From: Sistotremastrum niveocremeum HHB9708
Taxonomy: Eukaryota > Basidiomycota > Agaricomycetes > Sistotremastrales > Sistotremastraceae
Assembly: GCA_001630475.1 (NCBI GenBank)
Contig: KV419407.1
Coordinates: 558,001 to 622,000 of the forward strand
Direction of reading: 5' to 3'
DNA length: 64,000 nucleotides
Shown here: piece after piece, positions 56,084 to 62,208 of the stretch
Numbering within the stretch: position 1 is the stretch's first letter
Layout: each line of letters starts with the position of its first letter
The notes under the pieces: generated by a model
Told to the model about the DNA's origin: nothing
The model's database searches: none
Seen by the model: the letters and a program-made list of their open reading frames with translations, nothing else
Program-made: the position numbers and the translations under genes

Positions 56084-57400
56084 ATGGGACCTCATCGTAC
56101 AGCTCGGGACTCTGGCATAGACCACCCCCCATCCTTGAAAGAATGGACCAAAATGAAAAGGTTCAAATCGTACACTGGTTCGCAAGTAGTTTCATTGCGT
56201 TTTGAACCTCCTTGATCGACTTGGACCGAATGTACAGTCGTGGCTCTCGATGAAGAACGATTCACCTTTTTTCTCGGAGACGAGTGAGTAGTGGTTCTGA
56301 ATGTCTTTCATTACGCTACAGCTATGTCATTACCTCGTAGTGTCTATATACTTCCAGAGGGTCAAGAAGCTCACAACACGCCACCAGAGCGCCTCTGGAA
56401 CGCAAAGATCAAGGAAATTAGGGCCAAGGGTTTCGACTCAGATGATGTGAGACAGAATCTGCAATCAGAATTTCGTGCTGAAACGGTTCAGGTTTGGCTC
56501 CAGGTGATCTGGTATTACTCTCCGACGGAATTGAGCCAACGAGTGTCTGCGTTGTAAACTTATTTATTTTGGGCCGTCATGAGTTTGCTCTGAGGTCTTT
56601 TTGACAGTGATCCATCCTTTTGTGGAACCAACGAAAGGATATTCTCAAATCAAGAAGATATCGTCCATGCCCTCTCGTGCGACGGTATGTGAAGTTTGAC
56701 AAGGTCTCTGTCATGGCGACTGATATAACATCTAGGGCGTACCAAAGTATTAAAGTTCGATGATTCTGACCCTCTGCAGAGTCCGATTTCTGCGAAATCC
56801 AACTATTATCGCACAACCACCAATTTATCGAGCTCGAAGTCAAGACATAGTGGACGCCAATTGGTCAAGGTGAGAGTTCACTGAAGTGAGCGTTTGGTCT
56901 CTAACTAAGAATTACAGTAGCCTCTCTCAAGCTCATGCATATGTTTGCAACCATACAACCCGGATCGACACATCATGCATCGCTGCTCAGGCTGTGAGCG
57001 TTGGTATCATATTTCATGCATATTTGAGGCACATGCTCCTCCCGAGGACATCGACTGGGCAGATAACTCCGGTTCAATGCATGATGAACGCTCAAGTGGC
57101 GAAACTTCGACAAGGAACGAGCAAACACTGCCCGCGTTCGCGGATATTGGGGACACAGATCCGAAAACAGTAGCTCTCGCCTTGGCCAAATGTCCAGTCA
57201 CTCGAGGTATGGAGTATGGAGTTGTTGGCACTTTCAGCGGCATATCTGCTGCTCGTACCATGGTGCAACGGGTGAAATCAGACCCGGAATATATTTTCCC
57301 GGAGGATTGGTCCGCCCTTTTGGAAGTTAATTACTTCGACTTCGATTTGCTGGTTAGAGAATCCTGGTACGATTGCCCTAATTGTCATCAACCTATATAA
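56084..57400 (+). CDS. BAH-PHD chromatin protein with an expanded PHD finger
   Basis: BAH and PHD modules read nucleosomes and histone tails. Splicing gives MGPHRTARDSGIDHPPSLKE, then the BAH domain: FKSYTVVALDEERFTFFLGD, DVYILPEGQEAHNTPPERLW, NAKIKEIRAKGFDSDD, VWLQVIWYYSPTELSQR and NERIFSNQEDIVHALSCDGR. A Ser-rich linker leads to the PHD start, SSSCICLQPYNPDRHIMHRC then SGCERWYHISCIFEAHAPPE. The last Cys pair (YDCPNCHQPI) comes about 110 residues later, whereas a normal PHD closes within about 15-25. The insert is partly acidic and disordered, partly helical (TVALALAKCPVTRGMEYGVV). Exon joins in the BAH are well supported; the acceptor near 56613 is less certain. Confidence 0.8.
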
Positions 57401-57987
57401 GGTATTTCAACAACACTTATCTTGGTGCCTTGTCGTGACCTTTGCAGTTAAACAGGAACCGCATTACTTGGTTGTCGACTTCGGTTGCTTGTTGCTTCGC
57501 AGGATCACAAAATACTCACAGAATCCCTCCGTGCCGATACACGTCTGCTCAATTGCCACTCCGAAGGACTGTATATCTTGTTCATGAATTGTTAAATCGA
57601 AGAAGCTTATGTTGGGCATATTACATTACATATGCATGAGCGTCTAGTAGTAGTATGCTTTGTGTTTCGTGCGTGCTGGGTCCTTCCATACGATTGTGTT
57701 GGGTCTTGAAGTTTGTATACTATCAATATCAATCTGTCTATGTATCTGGGGTGTTGAATGGGGTTTTCATCAACATGGGTACTGGCATTCCAGTCCGACC
57801 TTGGGAGCCTCCAAGTGAACAGTGTCAATGGCAGTTCCTGAATTTAGTAACAAGGCACTTAGAAATTACGATACTAGTGGTTCAGGTTGACCTATCACAA
57901 AAAATAACACCTGGTCATCTCTGATAGTGATGACAGGCCCAGGCTGCGTCACAAAAAGCGAAAAACATCTTGAAGGGAAGCAAAACG
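57401..57987. other. Intergenic region between BAH-PHD gene and tRNA-Cys
   Basis: These 587 bp hold no recognisable gene, repeat or transposon remnant. The left part is probably the 3' flank of the BAH-PHD gene. A short T run on the minus strand at 57982-57985 is the tRNA terminator. Confidence 0.5.
57982..57985 (-). terminator. RNA polymerase III terminator of tRNA-Cys
   Basis: A TTTT run on the minus strand lies two bases beyond the discriminator side flank of the tRNA gene, as needed for Pol III release. Confidence 0.7.
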
Positions 57988-58059
57988 AGGACCGACCGTG
58001 ATTCGAACACGGGACCGCACGATCTGCAATCGCATGCGCTACCACTGCGCCATCGATCC
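57988..58059 (-). tRNA. tRNA-Cys (anticodon GCA)
   Basis: Read on the minus strand, the 72-nt gene folds fully. The acceptor stem GGATCGA pairs with TCGGTCC (one G-U type pair). The D arm is GCGC-AGTGGTA-GCGC, and the anticodon loop TTGCAGA gives GCA at 34-36. The T arm is CCGTG-TTCGAAT-CACGG. The base after the acceptor stem is U, the discriminator U73 typical of tRNA-Cys. There is no intron. Internal A and B boxes (TGGCGCAGTGG and GTTCGAATC) are present, and TTTT follows on the minus strand. Confidence 0.96.
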
Positions 58060-58275: not shown

Positions 58276-60237
58276 ATGAATGGTACCTCCAATTCACACT
58301 CGCAAACTGCCTCGAGAACAACTGTCGCCCCGAAGCCTCCACCAACGGGACCTGTACCGCACGTCCCATTATCGACACCAGTTGATTCTCCTGCAGCATC
58401 GTCTTCGAACCCAGATCCTGTTCCCCCACCTGCCATCAATGGCACTCACTCTCACAAAGCAAAGAGGAAGGCTGAACCCGTTGATCCCGCCGTGATGTAC
58501 GAGAACGTCAGGAACCGTATTGCTGCTCTAGAAGAAGAGGAAGTCCACGGAGAAGAAGAGCAGCGAAAGATAGGTTCGTCCGCTCTCTCGATCTCTCCGG
58601 TGGGCGCGAAGCATTGCTTAATTCAACAGCGGAAGAAGCACGAAAGAGTATAAAAGGAGCTTCAGAATCAGTCATTCAGACTCGCTATCTTGAATTGGTA
58701 ATATAACTTTGACGACGTCTGCTTCGTACGATTGATTTGCGTTCACCTTCTTGTATCACAGTTTCAGGAAATGAAGAGGCTGGAACGAGAACATGCTAGG
58801 GAGAAACAGAAATTAAATAAGGACAAAGATTCAGGTATCGTCCATGACCTCCTGTTTTTCTATGTCGGCTTAACCCGCTATTTCCCTATGTAGCCAAGGC
58901 TCAATCTTCAAAATTGACAAAGGACAAGACTAAACTGGAAAACCTGGGTCGAGAATTATCCAAGGTGTGTATTGCTCTCCATGCTGGCTGTATTCTATCT
59001 AACTTCAGATTAGGAAAACAGAAGGCTGAGAGTAATAAACATTTCCCTACCAACTGGACAGTCCTCTCACTCAGATTGCAGGAAGATACAAGGGTTTTAC
59101 GGGTTAGCGTGGAGGAAGCTCGTACCGAGGTTTGATCAGGATCTCTGCCATGTGTCTCCATTAACCACCCACAGATCCTGGCTTTGAAAACTGACATGGA
59201 AAAAAGGGTGGAAAAGGTCAAACGACAGCAGAAGAAGTTCCAAGACACGCCAGACATCGTAGTGAAAGTGGTTTGCAAATATCGCGCTGAACTGCTGTTC
59301 AAGATAACTCGCAAGACCAAGTTCGCTCGTTTATTCAATGCTTGGACCGAGAGGATGGAAATCGAAGGAGGCAGCGAGAAACGGCTCGAAAATGGTTCGA
59401 TCAGTGGGGCCTCTATGTCGAGCCAGAAATCGGAGGGAAATTTGGCACCTATGACTTTCATCTTTTCTCATAAGGGACGAACGATCGAGCCCGACCAAAC
59501 GCCCGAGGATGCAGGAATGGAGGAAAATGACGAAATACTAGCCCTAGAGATGCTTGATTTAACCAGTCCCGAAGTGGTACGTAAATGATTTGACTCGTAT
59601 TTTTTCACTTGATTAAGCTCATGGTCAGGATCTCGTCCCAACTTCTCAAAGAATGAGGTTATTGAAACACTGGATCGATGATCCGCAGGAGTGAGTCGCC
59701 CAAGCTGTGTTTGCACTCTCTTGTTAAACCAGCATTAGTGCGAAGCAAGCTATCGAGGACATATTTGATGGAGTGTATGAGAAACTTTGCAGCCATTGGC
59801 GCATCTTGCTCACTTCTGATACAGTGTCCGAGAACGATTGAAAGAAGTCCTCCGCCAATACGAGCTGCGCGAGAAGCATTTCGAATGCGTAATACGATCG
59901 AAGGAGCTGGAGGTGTTGCTATCAAGGGCGCGGGCAGAGGAGCAGAAACAGGTTGTTGAACAAACTCGAACTCTGCTGCAGGACATCGAAAGCGAGGTAA
60001 TGCATCAGTCCTCCTCGAGGCAATATGTACTGCCGTATTGACAATTGTTGTATTCAGAACTCGCAGTTGAAAGTCACGAGAGATGATTTAATTGAACAGA
60101 GTGAGAAATTGGTGGACGAACTGTTGGAATACTGCAGAGATCTGCCGCCAGGTGATGTTACTTCTCGATTGCGGACCTTTCTTCGTGCAGAGAAAGAAAG
60201 ACGGTTGGACGAGTCAACAGAATCTATAGGAGGATAA
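58276..60237 (+). CDS. Taxilin-like coiled-coil protein with an embedded SUMO-like domain
   Basis: Taxilins are coiled-coil proteins that bind syntaxins and ribosome-associated NAC. The N terminus is Pro/Ser-rich and basic. Taxilin motifs follow: VRNRIAALEEEEVHGEEEQR, ELFQEMKRLEREHAREKQKL, NKDKDSAKAQ, LTKDKTKLENLGRELSKENR. From about 59250 the reading frame enters DIVVKVVCKYRAELLFKITR, KTKFARLFNAWTERM, MTFIFSHKGRTIEPDQTPED and AGMEENDEILALEMLDLTS, which has the pattern of SUMO/Rad60-SLD folds; there is no terminal diglycine. After a short linker the taxilin pattern resumes: VVRERLKEVLRQYELREKHF and ECVIRSKELEVLLSRARAEE. The usual C-terminal taxilin block (a KSNEVF-like and EMEKMSKK segment) is missing; instead VTRDDLIEQSEKLVDELLEY ends the protein. 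One exon (59014-59031) has 18 nt. Confidence 0.78.
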
Positions 60238-60312: not shown

Positions 60313-61849
60313 TTAAGCGTTCGCGCTGGACAGTTTATCCAAAACTGTTGGCTTGTCAAAGTGCTTGCCCCGCAAGCTTTCCAGCCCTTCCCCAGCATAA
60401 GAAACAAGCGGAGATATCTCCACTTCGACACCGTCAGCCACAGTTGCCCCAGCTTGCTCAAGATATCGCCTTTGTTGAGCTAAAATATCTCTCCGGCTAG
60501 TTTGGGGATCATCAGACCCAGTACCAGGGGCATTCTTCAACGGACTAAACTCCTCCGTGCGTTCGACCTCCATTACTGTGAAGTCGTGTGTGAATGGGAA
60601 AACGTCAAATACGAATAACTCCAGTTTCATGCCGTTGGGTTTCGACGGCTTGGAATATTCTCCAGTTTTCAAGTCGACGAATGGAATCTTCTTACGCGCT
60701 ATGTGGAATGCCATCTTGTCCTCGAAAGACTCGATGGCTTTCAGAAACTTGGTAGTGTAGAAGTGGTTGACAATGTTGGCCGCCCGGAAAGCCAATTCTC
60801 CCGTTTTGGGGTCGCGGAGCTCGGCCTGCTCTTTTGAGATTTCGCTGTACTCGACAACGCTATATCGACCATCTCGGACTGCGACGACCCCAACAGATTC
60901 GGAGGGTATTGTCTTTCGAACCACCTTGGAGCCGCATTCTGCTTGTTTTTGGAGACAGCATCCCACGAATACGGGATCTGCAACTTTGACCAAGCAGTTG
61001 TCCACTCCGTAAGCGTGTACATATTGGATTCCGCGGCTTTCCATGTCCGAGAGCACAGTAGTCGACGAGTTGGATGAGGGAAGATGGAAGGGAGTTCGAA
61101 GAGCGTTGTACAATCCTCCATTTCCGTCGGGGGCAACTGCCACTCTTGAAGGTGCTTCCAAGAGCACTTTTCCGTCCATCGACAGACAAGGCAGTGTTCC
61201 TGGTTCATAAAGATGAGATGTCTCGGTGTAGCTCATCAAAGAAGTGGTCACCTTGTTCAAAGAATACAACATTATTGCGTTCCAGTCCAAAATATGCGTG
61301 CTCCTCAAAGAAAGCCTCCGTATTCGCTCGTGTTGGCCCGCTAGTCATTATGTACCAAGGAACCACAACAGAGGCGGGGCTTTTGCCCTTTGCCTGTGCA
61401 GCAACCTGTTGGATTCTGGCGATGCGCTCGGCTTGGATCTGAAACAGCGGTTTGTGGGATGGGAGACCAATGTCGTAGCACCCCTTCGGTGCAGAGCTGC
61501 CTAATCTTGTACCCTGGCCACCAGCCATGAGCAACACTCCGACCTTTCCATCCGCTATAGCCTCCAGACCAATCTCTCGCCACTGTGCTTCCTTCTGCGG
61601 CGCGCCCAGAATTGTTTCGAAAGACTCTTCTGGGAGAGGTTCGATGCCCTGGTGGATGGACTGATTGCTCTCTGCAGCATGCTTTTCGGACTGGATGGCG
61701 TTGGAATAAACGCGATTGACGCGCTCAATGTCGATGGAGCCGAGTTGTGAAACCAGAGATTTCTGATCGTCTTCTGAGAGCTGAGACCAAAAGTTGAAGA
61801 CGTGGCCCTGGCCTGCAGCCTCGTATTTCTGTCTGAGAGTCTCTGACAT
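60313..61849 (-). CDS. UAP1: UDP-N-acetylglucosamine pyrophosphorylase (UAP1/QRI1)
   Basis: This enzyme makes UDP-GlcNAc from GlcNAc-1-phosphate and UTP, the precursor of chitin, GPI anchors and N-glycans. The start at 61849 gives MSETLRQKYEAAGQGHVFNF. The uridyltransferase motif VGVLLMAGGQGTRLGSSAPK follows, then GCYDIGLPSHKPLFQIQAER, VPWYIMTSGPTRANTEAFFE and, after one intron, TLPCLSMDGKVLLEAPSRVA, VAPDGNGGLYNAL and GIQYVHAYGVDNCLVKVADP. The end includes KLELFVFDVFPFTHDFTVME and closes FDKPTVLDKLSSANA. The length is about 490-500 residues, typical, with only one clear intron. Confidence 0.96.
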
Positions 61850-62208
61850 GGTAGTGGGGTAGATGCTTGGTTCAGCACAAGGACAAGTGCATTTATAGTC
61901 GTCACATCTGATCTTCGCGCCTGAGGGTTGCTGCCGGCTTTAGCGGCACACAGCATTTCATCAACCGCGGATTTTTGCGTTTCGAACGTGTAATGTGGCA
62001 GTACACGAATATCTTAGCATTTTTTTGATTCTCAGGACATGATGCACCTCCAGGGTAATATCAATATTGATAAAGCAGAGAAAGTCATTATAATATACAA
62101 TGGTCGAGAGGGCAAATGTGTGTAGTAGACGCTCGACCCGGGCTTCATACGTCATACAACGCTGAACACGTCTAATGCGAAACCGGTGAAACGAAAGCTG
62201 GTAGCAAC
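61850..62208. other. Intergenic region, UAP1 promoter / GH5_9 3' flank
   Basis: These 359 bp lie between two genes on the minus strand. I see no gene or repeat. Confidence 0.5.

Follow-up and report, generated by a model that had tools for sequence, protein, structure and literature searches.

A gene at positions 58276-60237 (+ strand) of the window, the 64,000-nucleotide stretch of Sistotremastrum niveocremeum HHB9708 DNA analysed here, encodes a predicted protein of 475 residues in which a SUMO-like domain lies between two conserved coiled-coil segments of the taxilin family, and from which the C-terminal taxilin block is missing. The domain is carried whole by a single in-frame exon, exon 7. 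An earlier sequence-only reading had placed taxilin motifs here on either side of SUMO/Rad60-SLD-type sequence; both claims held, since the motifs fall at that place on the + strand in one frame-consistent model, and the Taxilin and Rad60-SLD matches are well beyond chance. The make-up looks real and uncommon, a new combination of known parts. We tentatively regard the protein as a shortened taxilin whose coiled-coil rod gains from exon 7 a non-conjugatable SUMO-like module that docks SUMO-interacting motifs (SIMs), a reading to which we give somewhat less than an even chance.

The gene model comprises 11 exons separated by 10 introns of 45-64 nucleotides (nt), all of GT-AG type; a script check of frame and borders found the frame unbroken, with no internal stop. 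Such short introns, like the gene content, fit a fungal genome. The in-frame coding score, computed with codon scores derived from 18 further long open reading frames of the window, is above zero in every exon but the 18-nt exon 5 (10/11), and the true frame ranks top of six in all but exons 5 and 8 (9/11). Within exon 7, the sub-parts (coil, both domain halves, loop) are all positive, with scores of 0.138, 0.114, 0.055 and 0.194. The motif LENLGRELSKENR is split by an intron and encoded by exons 4 and 5. The features of the gene are as follows.

58276-58573, 58630-58697, 58762-58834, 58894-58964, 59014-59031 and 59082-59129, + strand: exons 1-6 of the whole gene (script check).
59175-59576, 59629-59690, 59739-59774, 59825-59996 and 60058-60237, + strand: exons 7-11 of the whole gene (script check).
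58276-58573, + strand: exon 1, a low-complexity N-terminus rich in Pro, Ser and Thr, then the onset of the helical part (from the sequence).
58630-59129, + strand: exons 2-6, which encode the first taxilin segment with LENLGRELSKENRRL; profile positions 22-103 when exon 7 is left out (PF09728, 38.3 bits, E 1.2e-9).
59175-59576, + strand: exon 7, 402 nt, phase 0-0, a charged helical stretch followed by the whole SUMO-like domain (model, Pfam, coding score).
59262-59378, + strand: first half of the domain, in strand-strand-helix order when aligned with SUMO; PF11976 positions 3-41 (19.0 bits alone, E 0.0013).
59391-59450, + strand: additional Ser/Gly-rich loop between the helix and the third strand (a gap against the genome's own SUMO, 27 residues in total).
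59454-59537, + strand: second half of the SUMO-like domain with TPEDAGMEENDEI, PF11976 positions 41-68 (best stretch in the exon 7 scan).
59629-59774, + strand: exons 8-9, a linker apparently about as long as taxilin columns 104-134 (model).
59825-59996, + strand: exon 10, second taxilin segment EVLRQYELREKHFE, profile positions 137-188 (PF09728, 34.7 bits for the exon alone).
60058-60237, + strand: exon 11, in which the taxilin match finishes (profile position 211), then a short divergent C-terminus instead of the usual block (Pfam).

Homology to taxilins is established on both sides of the SUMO-like domain. The full protein matches the Taxilin profile (PF09728) with 59.4 bits and an expectation value (E) of 4.5e-16, the Pfam cut-off being 30.3, as two colinear stretches that cover positions 12-121 and 135-211 of 302, and either piece alone exceeds the cut-off. 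The N-terminal coiled-coil segment, scored as residues 1-219, covers profile positions 12-121 with 32.2 bits (E 8.6e-8), while the portion after the SUMO-like domain covers positions 135-211, the QYELREKHFE region, with 38.7 bits (E 8.6e-10). Between them, about 143 residues of the protein occupy the place of 13 profile columns. The helical stretch of exon 7 brings no gain in taxilin score (35.3 bits with it, 38.3 bits without), so that the diagnostic N-terminal taxilin part falls within exons 2-6, and its junction with the SUMO-like domain spans intron 6, an ordinary, in-phase intron. The sequence-only reading had relied on one exon holding both the 5′ coil and the SUMO-like domain: a charged helical stretch is indeed present in exon 7, but the diagnostic taxilin part is not, and the link within one exon is weaker than was stated. 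A crude heptad scan, uncalibrated and not used further, gave its highest values in windows starting at residues 111-181; values elsewhere were lower or patchy, with one window of 0.45 in the SUMO-like domain. With the SUMO-like domain removed, the taxilin part matched no solved structure at E ≤ 1.

The absence of the canonical C-terminal taxilin block, also remarked on previously, was confirmed: the match stops at profile position 211, and the segment corresponding to positions 212-302 is absent from the gene. The stop codon lies at 60235-60237, and little space is left 3′ of it for a further taxilin block because only 75 nt separate it from the open frame of a convergent gene:

60313-61939, - strand: UDP-sugar pyrophosphorylase-type gene, convergent (PF01704, UDPGP; 81.8 and 50.0 bits in two open stretches).

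The protein is thus taxilin-derived rather than a full taxilin, since the third of the three sequence segments was not found. In the genome (34.7 Mb, 111 contigs, the window lying on contig C14), no second Taxilin place was detected up to E 10, in a search of limited sensitivity that could overlook a further taxilin made up of small exons; this is weak evidence, because only exon 10 was detected among the taxilin exons of the present gene.

The assignment of the inserted domain is supported by profile, structure-database and within-genome comparisons. In the full protein, Rad60-SLD (PF11976) matches between the two taxilin pieces with 33.4 bits (E 4e-8; cut-off 23.8); exon 7 alone gives 37.9 bits (E 1.6e-9) and the SUMO-like domain as a whole 37.8 bits. 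When the domain is cut apart, its halves score 19.0 and 23.0 bits (E 7.3e-5 for the second), both below the cut-off. The best matches among solved structures (phmmer) are SUMOs, with a top E of 3.9e-5; the top two match in two pieces, one per half of the domain, neither of which is strong by itself. Comparison with the genome's own SUMO (locus L022, its splice model verified by script) gives 24/94 identical residues, with a single-comparison E of 1e-7 (BLASTP). With identity at that level only, a recent copy of SUMO was rejected as the origin of the domain. The last strand of the domain is followed by LEMLDLTSPEV, and no diglycine stands directly after the fold; as it is internal and lacks a diglycine tail, the domain does not qualify as a conjugatable modifier. 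The predicted protein itself terminates in GG (60229-60237, + strand), about 150 residues past the SUMO-like domain, probably by chance. By sequence the protein is thus SUMO-like, and it is neither a conjugatable SUMO nor a RENi-type protein; the domain would have a beta-grasp fold.

Elsewhere in the genome, the protein of the domain found no paralogue, only its self-match. The own SUMO as query recovered itself (at two places) and a SUMO-like locus on contig C76, and the window was not matched. No Rad60/Esc2-type gene was recognised among 12 translations drawn from 22 PF11976 places, nor by the SUMO search, the sensitivity of both being limited. Two other loci were observed. The one on C76 (L021, G000:C76:46500-49300, - strand) is a second SUMO-like gene or a pseudogene, apparently with QQGG near its end, and its initial splice reading breaks the frame at one junction. 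The other (L015, G000:C14:109500-113500, - strand) is a run of ubiquitin-like stretches in adjacent open frames, with PF11976 matches at E ≤ 0.1 in three of them, including one above the cut-off.

What the domain might bind was approached through its surfaces. The residue lists were taken from the contact table in PMC5319795 and placed on the pairwise alignment to Smt3, N85 of that paper being taken as N86 and H92 being unaligned. In the SIM-binding groove, 8 of the 11 Smt3 positions are identical, with I35L, F36L and K40T as the differences, versus 17/55 elsewhere (Fisher p 0.015); the retained groove surface residues include K38, T43, R47 and R55. Identity falls to 4/14 at the contacts of the SUMO-conjugating enzyme (E2), where one position is a gap (SIM versus E2, p 0.047) and the substitutions include D30K and D68K. 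On the protease (Ulp) surface 2/11 positions are identical (p 0.18 versus the rest of the domain), and among fold-core positions 9 of the 14 aligned. From this pattern we would predict that the domain docks SIMs but does not bind E2, and we give SIM docking itself about an even chance. The SIM binding proposed in the sequence-only reading accordingly survives as a prediction drawn from the groove residues.

In the reading that we favour, exon 7 would insert the SUMO-like domain between two conserved coiled-coil segments of a shortened taxilin, and the domain would behave as a fixed SUMO mimic whose groove between strand 2 and helix 1 docks the SIMs of partner proteins. By analogy with animal taxilins, the coiled coils may dimerise and position the rod on membranes or microtubules, and because the rod would dimerise, the dimer would present two docking sites. 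Animal alpha- and gamma-taxilin interact via their coiled coils (PMC8816381), and binding of animal taxilins to syntaxin, SNX4 and NAC is described in PMC3972091. Dimerisation and cell location of the fungal protein, and the tie to membrane traffic or NAC put forward earlier, would follow from this analogy.

Several points weigh against this reading. The splicing of the 58276-60237 model is predicted from sequence. Having lost the C-terminal region, the protein may not share the functions of animal taxilins. The groove comparison comes from a single pairwise alignment and was made after the fact; when fold-core residues are excluded, the contrast weakens to 5/7 for SIM positions versus 20/59 (p 0.09), and the lower conservation of the E2 surface relative to the remainder of the domain is not significant (4/14 versus 21/52, p 0.54). 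K40, a possible contact to acidic SIM residues, is lost. As for conservation, no relative supports it: four scans with exon 7 and exon 10, of viral contigs and of prokaryote genome contigs, gave no confirmed relative, and as these collections are viral, bacterial and archaeal by description, the scans are silent on conservation in fungi. Structure prediction, by which a beta-grasp fold had been expected to show, gave it no support either. Two AlphaFold models were built from an alignment without relatives, one for exon 7 plus 3 codons (137 residues) and one for the domain alone (108 residues); their confidence was low (predicted local distance difference test, pLDDT, of 40.9 and 46.3), and neither is usable. 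The 137-residue model has an N-terminal helix and then strand-strand-helix-strand-strand, an order in keeping with the fold, but at such confidence it is no evidence. With Foldseek, neither model had a match at E ≤ 0.001, and the best 50 of 100 and of 278 matches included no beta-grasp protein by title; the top matches (E 1.3 and 0.24) were proteins unrelated by title. Taken literally, the refuting condition set in the sequence-only reading, a structure search without a beta-grasp fold, has thereby occurred. Because the models are of such low confidence, this outcome carries no weight either way.

Four other explanations were weighed. It is very unlikely that the gene is an artefact of the model, joining on paper a piece of taxilin and an independent SUMO-like gene, or the parts of a decaying gene. 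The model, with its predicted splicing, depends on a 5′ join over intron 6 and a 3′ join over introns 7-9, and the coil of exon 7 adds no taxilin score; against this stand the frame kept through all ten short introns, the positive coding scores of each of the four sub-parts of exon 7, and two taxilin segments that are colinear and neither of which is complete alone. An unlikely explanation of another kind sees the domain as a structural spacer or hinge that has kept its fold and binds neither SIMs nor SUMO enzymes. Its divergence, the 27 residues by which it exceeds the own SUMO around the Ser/Gly-rich loop, and the differences from Smt3 at 10/14 E2 and 9/11 protease contacts next to a fold core with 9/14 identities would all suit such a role, but the retained groove surface residues may not be demanded by packing alone. 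That the domain recruits the SUMO E2 Ubc9 as SLD2 of Rad60 does, so that the protein steers sumoylation, is very improbable. The Pfam family takes its name in common with the Rad60 SUMO-like domains, and an interaction between Rad60 SLD2 and Ubc9 is reported in PMC2946365; here, however, Lys stands at the position of Smt3 Asp68, which contacts Arg13 and Arg17 of Ubc9 and whose D68R substitution can disrupt binding (PMC8636563), and Lys replaces Asp30 too.

The fourth explanation, also unlikely, makes the SUMO-like domain an optional cassette: the gene would yield two isoforms, SUMO-like when exon 7 is included and plain taxilin when it is skipped. Skipping would preserve the frame because exon 7 is 402 nt long with phase 0-0; without exon 7, the protein from residue 101 onward matches Taxilin as one stretch with 72.7 bits, compared with 59.4 bits in two stretches when the full protein is scored, and exons 8-9 provide roughly the length of profile columns 104-134. 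However, of four other cuts (61.4, 73.8, 72.1 and 60.9 bits) two score equally and two lower, so the taxilin score cannot single out exon 7 skipping or a native filler; exons 5, 6 and 9 are likewise multiples of three, and exon skipping is uncommon in fungi. It is a distinctly doubtful extension of this idea that the only taxilin detected in this fungal lineage is a switchable SUMO-mimic scaffold, in which a cassette exon adds the SIM-docking domain at a break in the rod, the C-terminal block has been given up and splicing decides on the recruitment of SIM proteins. A 13-nt near-repeat (92%) was observed on both sides of exon 7 (59133-59145 in intron 6; 59622-59634, across the boundary of intron 7 and exon 8); a rough estimate puts the chance expectation at about one such pair in 2.2 kb, and nothing is therefore made of it as an insertion mark.

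Upstream of the taxilin-derived gene lies a tRNA-Cys (GCA) gene (57987-58059, - strand). An open stretch at 56921-57400 (+ strand) has a Cys/His pattern resembling that of a PHD-type zinc finger, and no Pfam match at 0.001.

The earlier remark that no taxilin of this type is described agrees with the literature found: none of the papers listed connects taxilin with a SUMO-like domain, in searches from which most subscription journals were absent, and databases of the InterPro type may already list the architecture. No paper was found on taxilin in fungal domain architecture or in basidiomycetes. Among the matches listed for SUMO, ubiquitin-like domains or Rad60, taxilin is named only in a proteomics paper, and none of those listed for fungi or basidiomycetes names it; the titles listed for taxilin, syntaxin and coiled coils concern animals and maize among others. 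If conserved, the protein would be, as far as the literature found goes, the first taxilin with a SUMO-like domain, a physical link from coiled-coil trafficking or cytoskeletal scaffolds to SIM-bearing proteins, and a natural example of a rod with a SUMO-like domain spliced into its middle. If limited to one species, it would be a curiosity of domain gain.

Compared with known systems, the protein shares with the taxilin family (PF09728; alpha-, beta- and gamma-taxilin) two conserved coiled-coil segments in the same order, and departs from it in the exchange of 13 profile columns for about 143 residues and in the missing final segment. Both halves of the SUMO-like domain are those of SUMO (Smt3, the own SUMO) by sequence, with SIM-groove residues mostly retained, whereas its internal position, the extra loop, the lack of a processable diglycine after the fold and the mostly altered E2 and protease contacts set it apart. 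The RENi family (Rad60, Esc2, NIP45) likewise holds non-conjugatable SUMO-like domains within a larger protein, but there they are C-terminal, after a polar region, whereas here one internal domain stands between taxilin coils (Pfam). To our knowledge, UAF1 has no other domain in common with the present protein, and the analogy between them is functional only. UAF1 nevertheless gives the precedent for the mode proposed here, in which a tethered SUMO mimic would serve as a docking site: its built-in SUMO-like domain docks SIM proteins (PMC4835495).
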